Below, piece after piece: positions 32,888-60,108 of a stretch of 64,000 bases of DNA. This DNA comes from Cycloclasticus sp. symbiont of Bathymodiolus heckerae (GTDB lineage Bacteria; Pseudomonadota; Gammaproteobacteria; Methylococcales; Cycloclasticaceae). The notes below the pieces were generated by a model. That model was not told the DNA's origin. It saw only the letters and a list, made by a program, of their open reading frames with translations, and did not search any database. The position numbers and the translations under genes were made by a program. The stretch spans positions 18,559 through 82,558 of the forward strand of contig LWTL01000115.1 in assembly GCA_002101235.1 (NCBI GenBank), given 5' to 3'. The first letter of the stretch is position 1, and the number at the start of each line of letters is the position of its first letter.

Positions 32888-33361
32888 TTAACCGTGTTTC
32901 ATGATGCGTTGTTTTTCACGCTGCCAATCTTTGTTTTTGGACGTGGCGCGTTTGTCGTGAAGTTGCTTACCTTTAGCGGAACCAATTTCAAGCTTCACGC
33001 GGCTTTTCACCCAGTACATAGAAAGTGGAACAATGGTGTAGCCTTTACGCTCAACAAGGGCGACAAGGTTAATAAGTTCACGGCGGTTAAGCAATAACTT
33101 ACGCAACCGTGTTTGCATTGGGTCTATATGTGTTGATGCTGATAGAAGTGGTGAAATGTGAGCGCCAGCGAGCCAAGCCTCGCCATTTTTTATAACGACG
33201 TAACTTTCTTTTAGTTGAACGCGCCCATCTCGAATACTTTTTACTTCCCAGCCTTCTAATGCCATGCCTGCTTCAAAGCGTTGTTCGATGAAGTAGTCGT
33301 GAGTCGCTTTCTTGTTGGATGCAATTGAGTTTGGGTGCGATTTTTTCTTTTTACCTGCCAT
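32888..33361 (-). CDS. smpB: SsrA-binding protein SmpB
   Basis: [49 protein letters not shown]. Confidence 0.97.
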
Positions 33362-33473
33362 GTTTGTATTCTAAGCGAGCGATTAAATTATCGCTATAAA
33401 AGTCGGTTAATAACTTGGTTAAATGTTGAAGTTGAGTTAGTTTACTAACGATAAGAATAATAGTTAGTACCGT

Positions 33474-34826
33474 ATGAAAAAAATATCACAACATGGGCAA
33501 TGGTCATCGCGCTTAGCGTTTATTTTAGCGGCGACGGGCTCGGCTGTAGGCCTTGGGAATATATGGAAGTTTCCTTATATCACGGGTGAGAATGGGGGCG
33601 GTGCGTTTGTTTTAGTGTATTTGCTGTGCATTTTTGCGATTGGTATTCCGATTATGATGGCCGAAATTATGATCGGCCGGCGTGGTAGGCAAAGTCCTAT
33701 CAACACGATGCGTGATTTGGCAAAAGAAGTGGGTGCTAGTGGTGCGTGGAAGTGGCTTGGTTGGTTAGGTGTTATTGCCGGTTTTTTGATTTTGTCTTAC
33801 TACAGCGTGATTGCTGGATGGGCGATGGCCTATGTCGTACGGGTTGGGTCAGGTGTTTTCGAAGGCGCAACGGCTGATGGTGTGAGCAATATTTTTGGTC
33901 AGTTTGTTGCCGACCCTGAAAAGTTATTGGCATGGCATAGTTTATTCATGGTTATAACGATGTTGGTAGTGGCTCGAGGCGTTAAAGGTTTGGAGCGCGC
34001 TGTTAAGTTTTTAATGCCTGCGTTATTAGTTCTTTTAGTCTTATTGGTTGGTTATGCCATCGATCAAGGCGCATTTAAAGAAGCGGTGAGTTTTTTGTTT
34101 AGTGCGGACTTTAGCAAGATAACCAGCGATGGAATTCTTATAGCAATGGGTCATGCCTTTTTCACCTTAAGCTTAGGTATGGGTGCGATTATGGTGTATG
34201 GCTCTTACTTACCGTCAAATGTTTCGATAGGCTCTACAGCAGTGATTATTGCGCTAGCTGATACGGCGGTTGCGTTACTTGCGGGGTTAGCTATTTTCCC
34301 TATCGTTTTTGCTAATGGGCTAGAGCCAGGCAGTGGCCCAGGGTTGATTTTTCAGACACTTCCCATTGCTTTTGGGCATATGGCATACGGTTCATTTTTT
34401 GGAACCTTGTTCTTTATTTTATTGGTTTTTGCAGCATGGTCTTCATCTATTTCATTGATTGAGCCTGCCGTTGCATGGTTAGTTGAAAACAAGAAAATGA
34501 GTAGAATGCGTGCCTGTATTTGGTCCGGCTTAGTGACATGGATTGTAGGTATTGGGACTGTTTTATCGTTCAATATTACGTCAAATATAAAAATATTTGA
34601 TAAAACATTTTTTGATGTTTTAGATTATTTAACAGCGAATATTATGTTGCCTTTAGCTGGGTTGTGTATTGCTTTGTTCGCAGGTTGGGTGATGACGAAA
34701 GAAAGTGCAGAAGAAGAACTAGATTTTAAACAATTGTATTTATTTAAGACTTGGTTGTTCTTAGTGAAATTTGTATCGCCTGTAGCAGTTGTTATAGTGT
34801 TTCTTAAAGCGATTAATGTAATTTAA
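33474..34826 (+). CDS. Sodium-dependent (neurotransmitter:sodium symporter family) transporter
   Basis: WSSRLAFILAATGSAVGLGNIWKFPYITGENGGGAFVLVY. Confidence 0.94.
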   Translation: MKKISQHGQWSSRLAFILAATGSAVGLGNIWKFPYITGENGGGAFVLVYLLCIFAIGIPIMMAEIMIGRRGRQSPINTMRDLAKEVGASGAWKWLGWLGVIAGFLILSYYSVIAGWAMAYVVRVGSGVFEGATADGVSNIFGQFVADPEKLLAWHSLFMVITMLVVARGVKGLERAVKFLMPALLVLLVLLVGYAIDQGAFKEAVSFLFSADFSKITSDGILIAMGHAFFTLSLGMGAIMVYGSYLPSNVSIGSTAVIIALADTAVALLAGLAIFPIVFANGLEPGSGPGLIFQTLPIAFGHMAYGSFFGTLFFILLVFAAWSSSISLIEPAVAWLVENKKMSRMRACIWSGLVTWIVGIGTVLSFNITSNIKIFDKTFFDVLDYLTANIMLPLAGLCIALFAGWVMTKESAEEELDFKQLYLFKTWLFLVKFVSPVAVVIVFLKAINVI

Positions 34827-34831
34827 CGGTT

Positions 34832-35263
34832 ATGCATAAAATTGAACGCAGTGCGTTAGTTAGACATTCAGCAGAAGAGATGTTTCATCTTGTGAATGAT
34901 GTTGCATCCTATCCTGAATTTTTAAAGTGGTGCAGAAGCAGTAAAGTATTGAGTTCGACAAAAGAAGGTATGACGGCAGAGCTTGAAATTGCATGGAAGG
35001 TTTTGCACAAAGTTTTTAGTACGCAAAATAAACTGGTAGAAGGTAAAAGTATCCGACTTGAACTGCTTGATGGGCCTTTTGAATCAATGGAGGGCGAGTG
35101 GCATTTTAAACATTTGCGTGACGATGCCTGTAAAATCACGATGGAAATTGATTTCACTTTTAAAAGCTCAGTGAGCAATTTTGTTTTTTCAGCTATTTTT
35201 AGTCAAATATGTGGTTCATTAATGGACTCTTTTATTAAACGAGCAGATGAGATTTATGGGTAA
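34832..35263 (+). CDS. ratA: RatA family protein (START/polyketide cyclase-like)
   Basis: HKIERSALVRHSAEEMFHLVNDVASYPEFLKWC. Confidence 0.93.
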   Translation: MHKIERSALVRHSAEEMFHLVNDVASYPEFLKWCRSSKVLSSTKEGMTAELEIAWKVLHKVFSTQNKLVEGKSIRLELLDGPFESMEGEWHFKHLRDDACKITMEIDFTFKSSVSNFVFSAIFSQICGSLMDSFIKRADEIYG

Positions 35264-35564
35264 TGTAGAAGTTGCATATGCAACGCCAGAAAAACAGTTA
35301 ATTTTAGTCATTCCTTATGAAGATGAGTTGACGGCCGAATTGGCGATTGAACGCTCAGGAATGTTGACGCGTTTTCCAGATATTGAATTAGAAAACAGTA
35401 CAGTGGGTATTTTTAGTAAACCGTGTAAGTTAGATACCCCATTGCGTGCAGGTGACCGCGTGGAAATTTACCGTCCTTTGATAGCAGATCCCAAAGAAGT
35501 TAGGCGTAAGCGAGCTGAGGCAGGGAAAGTCACCAAAAAAGGTGCACGTTCAGCTAATGGCTAA
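35247..35564 (+). CDS. ratB: RnfH family ubiquitin-like protein (RatB)
   Basis: VEVAYATPEKQLIL..., GDRVEIYRPLIADPKEVRRKRA; overlaps ratA. Confidence 0.93.
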   Translation: MRFMGNVEVAYATPEKQLILVIPYEDELTAELAIERSGMLTRFPDIELENSTVGIFSKPCKLDTPLRAGDRVEIYRPLIADPKEVRRKRAEAGKVTKKGARSANG

Positions 35565-35570
35565 TATGGC

Positions 35571-35598
35571 TTGAAATACCCAAAAAATAGCTTATATT
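35571..35598 (+). promoter_or_regulatory. sigma70-like promoter for the leuA leader
   Basis: TTGAAA, 16-bp spacer, TATATT. Confidence 0.5.
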
Positions 35599-35605
35599 AA
35601 TACGT

Positions 35606-35725
35606 ATGAATTTCAATGAAGACACTGCCATTTCTACTATCATGTTAAGTGATGTGTCTTTATGTTCATTGGTACCGCAAGATATTCTCCTGCTAAACCT
35701 TCCTCGACTGCCGCTGCGCGGCTAG
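35606..35725 (+). promoter_or_regulatory. Putative leu leader peptide (attenuator ORF); start may be 35642
   Basis: ORF ends ...DILLLNLPRLPLRG*: CTC CTG CTA AAC CTT CCT CGA CTG CCG CTG, upstream of leuA. Confidence 0.6.
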
Positions 35726-35775
35726 TGAAAATGCCTGGCGAGGTGAAACGTAATTACCTATTAAGAGTTAAGAAA

Positions 35776-35793
35776 TGTCATAAATTTATGACA
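35776..35793. promoter_or_regulatory. Perfect 18-bp palindrome upstream of leuA
   Basis: TGTCATAAATTTATGACA. Confidence 0.6.
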
Positions 35794-35807
35794 CGTGGAG
35801 TATAGAA

Positions 35808-37364
35808 ATGAGTAAAGAAAAATTAATAATTTTTGATACGACCTTACGCGATGGCGAGCAAAGCCCCGGCGCGTCAATGACGGCTGAAGAAAAGTTACGT
35901 ATTGCTAAAGCCTTAGAGAAAATGAAGGTTGATATTATTGAAGCGGGTTTTCCGATTTCAAGTGAAGGCGACTTTTTAGCTGTTCAAGGCATTGCGCGAG
36001 AAATAAAAGACAGCGTTGTGTGTGGTTTGGCACGTGCAGGTGCGTTAGATATTAATAGAGCGGGCGAAGCGCTTAAGGATGCCAATAATGCATCACGTAT
36101 TCATACGTTTATTGCTACATCGCCCTTACACATGCGCGATAAACTGCAGATGACGCCTGACCAAGTATTTGATCAAGCCGTTAGCGCTGTTAAATTGGCT
36201 AGAAACTTTACCGATAATGTTGAATTTTCACCCGAAGATGCAGGGCGTTCAGACCTAGATTTTTTATGCCGTGTCATTGAGGCGGTGATTAAAGCGGGTG
36301 CAACAACGATTAATATTCCTGATACGGTGGGCTATAACTTGCCGCAGCAATATGGTGAAACCATTCGCCAGTTGATCGAACGAATTCCTAATTCAGGGAA
36401 GGCTATATTTTCAACCCATTGCCATAACGATTTAGGCATGGCAGTTGCCAATTCGCTTGCTGGCGTGATGAACGGCGCAAGACAGGTGGAGTGCTCCATT
36501 AATGGTTTGGGCGAGCGAGCAGGTAATGCCGCGCTTGAAGAGATTGTGATGGCTGTACGCACGCGACAAGATATGTTGCCGTGTGATGTGCATGTGGACT
36601 CAACGCAAATTATGACTTGTTCACGTTTGGTGTCGGGTATTACGGGTTTTGCTGTACAGCCTAATAAAGCGATTGTGGGTGCGAATGCGTTTGCACATGA
36701 ATCTGGCATTCATCAAGACGGTGTTTTAAAGTCCCGTGAAACGTATGAAATTATGCGTGCTGAAGATGTAGGCTTAAGCTCCAACAAGTTAGTGCTTGGC
36801 AAGTTATCAGGTCGTAGTGCGTTTAAAGATCGCTTAGAAACGCTAAATATTAGTATTGATAGCGAAGAAGAGTTAAACAGTGCATTTAGACGTTTTAAAG
36901 ACTTAGCGGATAAAAAGTCTGAAATTTTTGATGAAGATATTCAAGCATTGGTTTCTAACTTTAAAATGGAAGCAAGCTTTGCAGAAGCGATAAAGCTGAT
37001 CTCTATTAAAGCGTGTTCTGAAACGGGCGAAACGCCGCAGGCTAGCATTACTTTATTGATTGATGATGAGGAAAAATCAGCATCATCAGAAGGTGGTGGT
37101 TTGGTGGATGCGACGTTCAAAGCGATTGAAAAGATTATATCGAGTGATGCTGACTTACAAATCTACTCGGTGAGTAATGTAACGAAGGGCACTGATTCAC
37201 TTGGTGAAGTGGCGGTTAGACTTGAAAAAGCAGGTCGTATTGTAAATGGCCAAGGCTCTGATACTGATATTGTTATTGCATCAGCAAAAGCCTATATCAA
37301 TGCGCTTAATCGTTTATTGAGCCCGAGTAAACGAATACATCCTCAAGCGTATGAGGGTGTTTGA
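35808..37364 (+). CDS. leuA: 2-isopropylmalate synthase
   Basis: [49 protein letters not shown]. Confidence 0.97.
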
Positions 37365-37383
37365 TTCTGATTTATAGAATGAT

Positions 37384-37416
37384 TAAAAAAGCCCCGTATT
37401 AGCGGGGCTTTTTTAT
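37384..37416 (+). terminator. Rho-independent terminator after leuA
   Basis: aaaaaagccccgtattagcggggctttttta. Confidence 0.92.
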
Positions 37417-37443
37417 GCAAGGCTGTTTTTTAATGCTTGTAAC

Positions 37444-37893
37444 TTAACCAATAGGTTCGTTAGCTGAAAGTAGGAAATGGCCCCTAGCAATAGCGATGGG
37501 CTTTTCTGAATCAGCCTGCCATGCTTTTATATTACATAAAGCAACACGGCGGCCTAAACGAATAACATCACAATGAGAGTAGGTTGTTTCTGTAAGTCCT
37601 GGGCGTAAATAATCAATTGAAAAATCAATGACTTTCGGAGTTTTCTTAAGTTCAAAACACCATAAAAGATGGAATAAAGCGGCATTTTCCATAAAGCCGG
37701 CAACTAAGCCTCCATGTAAAGCAGGTAAGGTAGGGTTGCCTATATTGCTTTCCATAAAGGGTAAGGTGGATACAATTTTATCGCCTACTAGGCTTGTTTC
37801 AATACCCATTGATTTAGCATAAGGAATAAGCTGAATCATTCCCTCGTAATCATTAGAGTCTTTAAGCTGCTGAATTGATTGGAGAAGGGTCAT
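37444..37893 (-). CDS. PaaI/hotdog family thioesterase
   Basis: ALHGGLVAGFMENAA...IDFSIDYLRPG; start inferred inside ORF 37444-37965. Confidence 0.8.
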   Translation of the reverse strand: MTLLQSIQQLKDSNDYEGMIQLIPYAKSMGIETSLVGDKIVSTLPFMESNIGNPTLPALHGGLVAGFMENAALFHLLWCFELKKTPKVIDFSIDYLRPGLTETTYSHCDVIRLGRRVALCNIKAWQADSEKPIAIARGHFLLSANEPIG

Positions 37894-37894
37894 G

Positions 37895-38323
37895 TTAATT
37901 AACGGGGAACTCTTCATTAGAGCGCATAAATGAACCTGTTGCTGTTGCAATAGGTTTGCTCGCATCGTCGGTGTATAAGTTCACGCGAACGAATGCAATG
38001 GTATGAGTAAGGTGATAACAATCAGCGTTAGCATATACGTCGCTTCCTGAACTGGCAGGCTGCATATGATCTATGCGCAAATCAAGGGTTGCCATGGCTC
38101 GATAGTTGTTCTGAGCTTGAAAGATAGCAACACCACATGCGGTGTCGGCTAAGGTTGTTATTGCGCCGCCATGAATATATCCATTAACAGGGTCGCCAAT
38201 AAGTTCTTCATTAAAAGGGAGTTTTAATATAACGGACGTTCTTTCAGAAGATAGAAGTTCTAAATTCAGCTTTTTCGCGTGAGGAGTTTGGTTTATTTTT
38301 TCAAGGTGAGCGTTTGTTACCAT
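37895..38323 (-). CDS. PaaI/hotdog family thioesterase
   Basis: GYIHGGAITTLADTACGVAIF; DLRIDHMQPA. Confidence 0.87.
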   Translation of the reverse strand: MVTNAHLEKINQTPHAKKLNLELLSSERTSVILKLPFNEELIGDPVNGYIHGGAITTLADTACGVAIFQAQNNYRAMATLDLRIDHMQPASSGSDVYANADCYHLTHTIAFVRVNLYTDDASKPIATATGSFMRSNEEFPVN

Positions 38324-38326
38324 GGG

Positions 38327-38821
38327 TTAATACTTTTCGTCGTACTCAATGCCGACAGCACGTAATGCTTCTTCAAGAATACCTTTTTCTTCTTCGACAT
38401 GTTTTGGTACGTCAACCACTTCAGTATTAATAGCCATAGGCTTAAATTCATTGCTCGGTCTGAAGTTGCCTTTTAAATTAACAAGCTCATTACCATCGAA
38501 AATAACCGTAACGCGTTCTTTCGTATCTTGTTTCCCGCCTTTTTTCAGGTCATAAAAATAGTCCCAACGGTCTTTATGGAACGGATCTATTAGTAGCGGT
38601 GTGCCGAGTATGAATTTCACTTGTCGTTTATCCATGCCGGGGCGAAGCTGATTAATCATTTCTTGGGTTACTAAATTACCTTGGCGAATGTCAATTTTAT
38701 ATACGCCGGGTAAATTGTCAGCGACATTCAACATTTTTTGGTTTAACTCTGCTGTTGTGGTGCAGGCAATAAAAAATTGGCTGCAAATGAGAGTGATTAG
38801 TAAAATGAGAAGCTTTCGCAT
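38327..38821 (-). CDS. bamE: Outer membrane protein assembly factor BamE
   Basis: Lipobox FIACTT, VYKIDIRQGNLVTQEMINQLRPGMDKRQVKFILGTPL. Confidence 0.94.
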   Translation of the reverse strand: MRKLLILLITLICSQFFIACTTTAELNQKMLNVADNLPGVYKIDIRQGNLVTQEMINQLRPGMDKRQVKFILGTPLLIDPFHKDRWDYFYDLKKGGKQDTKERVTVIFDGNELVNLKGNFRPSNEFKPMAINTEVVDVPKHVEEEKGILEEALRAVGIEYDEKY

Positions 38822-38901
38822 TTGGAGGTATCTGTGTATGATTAGTAGGCTGAGATGATACATTATCTTGTCTATTTATCCACCATAAATTTGAGGTCAA
38901 A

Positions 38902-39312
38902 ATGGAGTCAAAAGACATACGAGCAGCTGGGTTAAAGGTGACTTTGCCGCGTTTGAAAATCCTTGATATGTTGGAAAGTAGTGGCAATAGGCATCTATCT
39001 GCTGAAGACTTGTATAAGGCGCTGCTAGATGACGGAGAAGAAATTGGTTTGGCGACGGTGTATCGTGTATTAACTCAGTTTGAAGGCGCAGCTCTAGTCA
39101 ACCGACATCACTTTGAAGGAGGCAACTCAGTATTTGAACTCAGTCAAGGTGAACACCATGATCATATTTTATGCGTTAAATGTGGTCGGGTTGATGAGTT
39201 TTGTGATGAGATTATTGAACAGCGTCAGCGCCTCATTGCGGAAGAGAATGGTTATGAAATGACCGATCACAGTTTGTATATTTACGGCGTTTGTTCGGAG
39301 TGTTCTAAATAG
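38902..39312 (+). CDS. fur: Ferric uptake regulator
   Basis: AAGLKVTLPRLKILDMLE, GEHHDHILCVKCGRVDEF. Confidence 0.97.
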   Translation: MESKDIRAAGLKVTLPRLKILDMLESSGNRHLSAEDLYKALLDDGEEIGLATVYRVLTQFEGAALVNRHHFEGGNSVFELSQGEHHDHILCVKCGRVDEFCDEIIEQRQRLIAEENGYEMTDHSLYIYGVCSECSK

Positions 39313-60022: not shown

Positions 60023-60108
60023 GCCGAGGTGGTGGAATTGGTAGACACGCTATCTTGAGGGGGTAGTGTCCTATGGACGTGCGGGTTCAAGTCCCGCTCT
60101 CGGCACCA
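60023..60108 (+). tRNA. tRNA-Leu (anticodon GAG)
   Basis: GCCGAGGTGGTGGAATTGGTAGACACGCTATCTTGAGGGGGTAGT...GCGGGTTCAAGTCCCGCTCTCGGCACCA cloverleaf with variable arm. Confidence 0.96.

Follow-up and report, generated by a model that had tools for sequence, protein, structure and literature searches.

What controls leuA when its gene is preceded by a short, leucine-rich reading frame and no terminator can be made out between the two? Leucine attenuation in Proteobacteria has its textbook case in E. coli, where the leader carries a terminator. A sequence-only reading of the window, by which we mean the whole 64,000-nucleotide stretch analysed, had proposed a leader peptide before leuA and suggested that its mechanism might be non-standard. 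The features on which the question turns are as follows.

35571–35598, forward strand: promoter TTGAAA-16-TATATT, sigma70-type, matching the consensus at 10 of 12 positions; its -10 box ends 7 nt 5' of the ORF's ATG
35606–35725, forward strand: leader-peptide ORF of 39 codons, ATG to TAG, probably leaderless, recognised by congener homology and a codon-position test
35687–35716, forward strand: putative leucine sensor, in which six of ten codons are Leu (CUC CUG CUA, CUU, CUG, CUG), all rare codons in the genus
35710–35722, forward strand: H1, a hairpin GCCGC-UGC-GCGGC over the last ORF codons, directly 5' of the stop, with a compensatory change in congeners
35733–35751, forward strand: H2, an element with stem GCCU/AGGU and loop GGCG followed by GAAACGU; possible pseudoknot GCG (35738–35740) with CGU (35749–35751)
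35776–35793, forward strand: H3, a hairpin UGUCAUAAAUUUAUGACA just 5' of the leuA Shine–Dalgarno (SD), recognised by two-sided changes in congeners and by local folding energy
35797–35800, forward strand: leuA SD, GGAG
35808–37364, forward strand: leuA, 2-isopropylmalate synthase (NCBIfam equivalog, 877.7 bits)

The promoter and the order of ORF and leuA are thus as the earlier reading had placed them; its six Leu codons are also at the coordinates given, though they occupy ten positions and not eleven (in order, CUC CUG CUA AAC CUU CCU CGA CUG CCG CUG). The ORF encodes MNFNEDTAISTIMLSDVSLCSLVPQDILLLNLPRLPLRG*. The gene after leuA is on the opposite strand and leuA stands alone, unlike the enterobacterial leuABCD operon. 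The neighbourhood (window positions 32888–39312) has what we take to be a typical smpB, ratA, rnfH, bamE and fur order, and two hotdog thioesterases follow leuA on the opposite strand. A search for ring-hydroxylating dioxygenases, made on the guess that the genus is Cycloclasticus, was negative.

An ORF of 39 codons is weak evidence on its own, and we therefore compared relatives. Among 18 genomes of the genus searched, 16 have a leuA match (the window included), and in all 16 the corresponding place before leuA is taken by a homologue of the ORF. Its tail follows the pattern LLL.LPRLPLRG, with variation; across these congeners frequent Leu is limited to the final 12 residues, one position further up excepted, and it reaches a fraction of 0.88 at single tail positions. 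Leu enrichment is confined to one frame, the other frames giving 0.08–0.14, and outside H1 the third codon position is the most variable and the second the least (0.592 vs 0.455; permutation p 0.0008). A second upstream ORF, at 35662–35805, was rejected as its frame is not kept in congeners. The proposal of a Leu-rich leader peptide is strongly supported by the conserved frame, the Leu-rich tail, the biased use of rare Leu codons and the constant position; the expectation that the peptide would be conserved in relatives holds for its Leu richness, but not for LLLNLPRLPLRG itself, the peptide differing between genera.

The choice of Leu codons is unusual, too. CUC and CUG together account for 62% of the tail's Leu codons, compared with 6% for leuA and 13% for the window's long ORFs, and in the front of the ORF the usual Leu codon is UUA; the excess of CUG in the tail is partly bound up with H1. 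Among the class II tRNAs of the genome we found tRNA-Leu genes with anticodons GAG, UAA, CAA and UAG and none with CAG; with this set, the CUC/CUG tail would rely on two minor-codon tRNAs, as would be expected of a starvation sensor. The gene for tRNA-Leu(GAG), the reader of the tail-enriched CUC and CUU, lies in the same window (60023–60108, forward strand). The codon pair CGA-CUG stands before the final Leu/Pro codons (35705–35710 in the window) and is frequent in the tails of many relatives; its slow Arg codon could set the timing of the ribosome. Taken as sequence evidence, the case for leucine sensing by the leader looks well supported.

The start of the ORF adds a feature that the earlier reading overlooked, as it did the conserved RNA element and the wide spread described below. 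The distance from the end of the -10 box to the ATG is 6–7 nt in 15 of the 16 congeners, the exception reflecting a differing automatic choice of box, and mostly 6–8 nt in many other families. From a sigma70 promoter, transcription is expected to start about the ATG, so the ORF probably opens the 5' end of the RNA and is, on promoter spacing, probably leaderless. Beta- and Gammaproteobacteria show similar arrangements more widely: of 93 further leuA loci in these groups, 35 have a Leu ORF of leaderless type, defined as one that starts with ATG, has a -10 box 6–9 nt upstream and carries at least four Leu among its last 14 residues; shuffles lead one to expect 0.2.

On the RNA side, RNAalifold applied to the genus alignment gave three hairpins, H1 in the last codons, H2 with the core CCU-GGCG-AGG, and H3 directly 5' of the SD. 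H1 shows the compensatory pair GCUGC/GCAGC in two congeners (G013 and G005). H3 has changes on both sides of its stem in congeners, and the local folding energy just 5' of the SD has a mean z of -1.85 in the genus and -1.08 elsewhere, with values of about 0 fifteen nt further up. A search for mutually exclusive folds gave no clear pair; the alignment yielded compatible hairpins only, and H1 and H2 can coexist. Two candidates were discarded: the SD-like GAGGUGA within H2 as a functional site, the corresponding sequence being GAGGCGA or GAGACGA in other copies, and a CCUCG:CGAGG pairing of the ORF tail with H2 seen in the window, which is lost in many relatives (e.g., L003, L006 and L009).

The consensus of H2, NCCU-GGCG-AGGN followed by nnAWACGC, is sufficiently distinct to be searched for. 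As a pattern, H2 gave 30 matches in 274 genomes of the class and 7 with the reversed control, many of the former directly before leuA. A covariance model covering both H1 and H2, built from 13 rows (one of which, L016, was entered minus one A of the H2 spacer), found 87 genomes at E 0.1 among 369 genomes of the class. Fifty of the model's matches were fetched, and 45 of them stand immediately upstream of leuA; of 68 aligned, 63 have leuA 37–145 nt downstream, and 62 of these 63 come with an ORF having 3–9 Leu in its last 14 residues. In the congeners searched, H2 is single-copy and tied to leuA. Four weak model matches away from leuA (L181, L189, L190 and L192) look like false positives. One genome (G145), besides a normal leuA-linked copy (L140), has a second copy of the leader with Leu ORF, H1 and H2 (L151:1501–1556, contig C96), with no leuA detected downstream and a formate/nitrite-type transporter among its neighbours. 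Judging by these genomes, the same leader arrangement without the textbook terminator is common to many gammaproteobacterial families.

In the alignment of H1 and H2, 95.5% of the cells are paired, and the covariation score is 0.181 vs 0.076, with none of 500 shuffles as high and slid controls at or below 0.046, although the alignment had been fitted to the model, which favours the score. The outer pair of H2 is the clean case, occurring as GC, CG, AU, UA, GU and UG and being paired in 49 of 63 copies where 28.5 are expected. The GGCG loop and the ACGC or ACGU are kept in nearly all of the 63 leuA-linked copies, even as the spacer grows from 4 to 8 nt, and their persistence suggests a GCG:CGC pseudoknot within H2; the pairing of GCG with CGC or CGU is possible in the copies of H2 but, being invariant except for C/U, can give no covariation signal. 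The conservation of H2 exceeds what either a translational or a Rho-based model needs; the element may have a direct role in the control of leuA. A search for tRNA genes gave none at the leader. H2 (35733–35751) does share UGGCG...ACGC with the D-arm of the genome's tRNA-Leu(CAA) and tRNA-Leu(UAG) (L225 and L228), a short likeness that may be due to chance; it could also indicate mimicry of a tRNA or a synthetase.

Two other arrangements were seen on the way. Just before leuA at three gammaproteobacterial loci (L021, L040 and L048), the SD GGAG lies in a short hairpin CUCC....GGAG, and this predicted structure fits translational control more directly than does the leader of the window. At eight betaproteobacterial leuA loci (L065, L072, L075, L077, L085, L091, L096 and L104), a probably leaderless ORF ends in LLLRxAR* or similar, and a C-rich stretch after the ORF, often CCCCACAA-like, replaces H2, giving a second type of leader.

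How might such a leader work? We infer from the sequence that it attenuates leuA, and we consider it rather likely that it is a ribosome-mediated leucine sensor whose output lies mainly at translation initiation and not at an intrinsic terminator. The parts established by comparison, namely the conserved ORF with its signs of translation, its rare Leu codons, H1, H2, H3 and the lack of a terminator, would then act together in the following way. With transcription starting at or next to the ATG, as the -10 spacing implies, a ribosome would load on the 5' end of the RNA and translate the ORF at once. When charged tRNA-Leu is ample, it would pass the minor Leu codons, reach the stop and depart, and the freed leader would fold, through H1, H2 and pairing between the Leu codons and the SD, leaving the leuA SD mostly paired. 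When leucine is short, the ribosome would stall on the tail codons and cover them and H1, by which the SD region would be released and leuA made. The output would most likely be translation initiation, with Rho acting on the untranslated leader possibly assisting.

Folding predictions agree with this scheme to a degree. For the free leader, prediction has the SD of leuA mostly paired, its main partner being the ORF. In other families the pairing exceeds that of synonymously recoded ORFs (0.69 vs 0.55; p 0.011), while within the genus the same comparison is not significant (p 0.25). Against dinucleotide shuffles of the ORF the values are 0.68 vs 0.56; shuffled ORFs still pair with the SD well, and most of the pairing is therefore accounted for by the C/U-richness of Leu codons. 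When the window's leader is folded with a ribosome masking successive tail positions, the SD opens furthest when the A-site holds codons -8 to -7 (counting back from the stop), where there is a Leu codon: the predicted openness of the SD is 0.47 there, 0.16 in the free leader and 0.13 with the ribosome at the stop. Over the genus the effect is small, the mean rising with masking from 0.26 to 0.33. The scheme that fits these predictions best, though it is weakly tested, is a translational attenuator with the SD masked by Leu codons and released by ribosome stalling.

Other explanations have to be weighed against a translational output. One is a classical leu attenuator whose intrinsic terminator our folding rules missed; in its favour is the well-known leader of E. 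coli (RF00512), which likewise has a Leu-rich peptide ahead of leuA. A simple scan did miss the E. coli terminator, probably as the stem absorbed the T-tract, and we used a separate energy-based search, which recovered the terminator of the E. coli K-12 leu leader at -16.3 kcal/mol. Strict rules gave terminators in 3 of 62 leaders, where 1.8 are expected; the laxer energy-based search gave 8 of 62 against 2.2, weak and scattered, of which only two reach -10 kcal/mol, these being located at H1 or within the ORF, and there is no common site. Both searches agree with the earlier remark that no T-rich terminator is obvious after the ORF, and with the suspicion of a non-standard mechanism, the absence being conserved throughout the group. 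Nor did the window, its leader or 20 relatives match any Rfam family, the leader finding none at the gathering score or even at E 10, whereas the E. coli leu leader scores 145.8 bits with RF00512 and does not match our H1+H2 model. The reading is largely refuted already and very improbable. Even less weight, practically none, goes to a chance ORF inside a conserved RNA: H1 does constrain the last codons, but the substitutions outside H1 are of the coding type, Leu is enriched in a single frame, the position of the ATG is fixed relative to the -10 box, and Leu-rich tails occur also in families without H2.

The main rival to a translational output is Rho-dependent transcription attenuation, in which the position of the leader ribosome governs the loading of Rho on the stretch after the ORF and thereby termination before leuA; tna and some Mycobacterium uORFs are examples of such control. 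It would suit leaders without an intrinsic terminator, and the conserved structures flanking the stop could gate access. In leaders from beyond the genus, C does exceed G in the stretch 3' of H2 (0.27 vs 0.19; true of 37 of 47), but within the window's genus this stretch is not C-rich (0.15 vs 0.14), and an upstream stall that leaves the downstream RNA free would act in the wrong direction if neither H2 nor H3 came into play. We regard this mechanism as unlikely. It is more doubtful still that the true sensor is H2, as a small structured RNA, possibly pseudoknotted, to which a protein or ligand binds while the peptide supplies a second input. The invariance of its GGCG and ACGC/ACGU and its single-copy tie to leuA are what such a sensor would show, yet H2 is very small for an aptamer, we know of no partner for it, and many leuA loci have a like peptide without H2 (e.g., L020–L031), making the peptide the common denominator.

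Among known systems, the enterobacterial leuL (RF00512 Leu_leader) shares with the window leader a Leu-rich peptide before leuA and uncommon Leu codons, but the latter has no Rfam match, no intrinsic terminator and probably no 5' UTR, and has the conserved H2. Shewanella likewise has a gammaproteobacterial leuA leader peptide, in an attenuator with terminator and anti-terminator stems (PMC2659441); leaders of gammaproteobacterial leuA described so far, in E. coli and Shewanella (PMC2659441), have terminators and the window type does not. The nearest logic appears, by analogy, to be that of two actinobacterial systems. The LEU element has a uORF in which Leu codons form a run; it lacks a terminator, and for it a pseudoknot and base-pairing between the Leu codons and the SD have been proposed (Seliverstov et al. 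2005, PMC1262725), and its leucine-codon mutants misfit classical attenuation (PMC1262725). The window group resembles it in the Leu-codon run and the lack of a terminator but belongs to another phylum and has in H2 an invariant GGCG loop and ACGC, while no conserved unpaired nucleotides are reported for the LEU element (PMC1262725). The leuL1 of Streptomyces lividans, a leaderless, 15-residue, Leu-rich peptide before leuA with no typical terminator (PMC8079986), is alike in layout, also in another phylum. Mycobacterial polycysteine uORFs, as far as the citing papers describe them, are leaderless attenuators with translational-attenuation logic (Canestrari et al. 2020, cited in PMC9031893 and PMC13236596); they too are short ORFs rich in the regulated amino acid, though cysteine is sensed and the phylum differs.

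We found no report of this leader in the open literature, and a blastn search of plasmids gave no match; an earlier partial description is possible, for example in comparative work on proteobacterial attenuators, for which Vitreschak et al. 2004 is said to be the key paper. A less likely reading is that such leuA leaders form a class of their own in Beta- and Gammaproteobacteria, in which a leaderless Leu peptide would be combined with a compact H2, perhaps a pseudoknot, that reads the position of the ribosome or binds a partner, and no terminator would be involved.

Overall, the leucine leader at this locus is real, widespread and of a general kind already known; this variant of it, which is probably leaderless, lacks a terminator and has a conserved RNA element, seems not to have been described. 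It would be a common alternative to the E. coli scheme, found in many gammaproteobacterial families and, in another form, in Betaproteobacteria. It also provides a defined RNA motif, absent from Rfam, with which annotation can be extended, and allows leaderless leader peptides to be tested in bacteria other than Actinobacteria.
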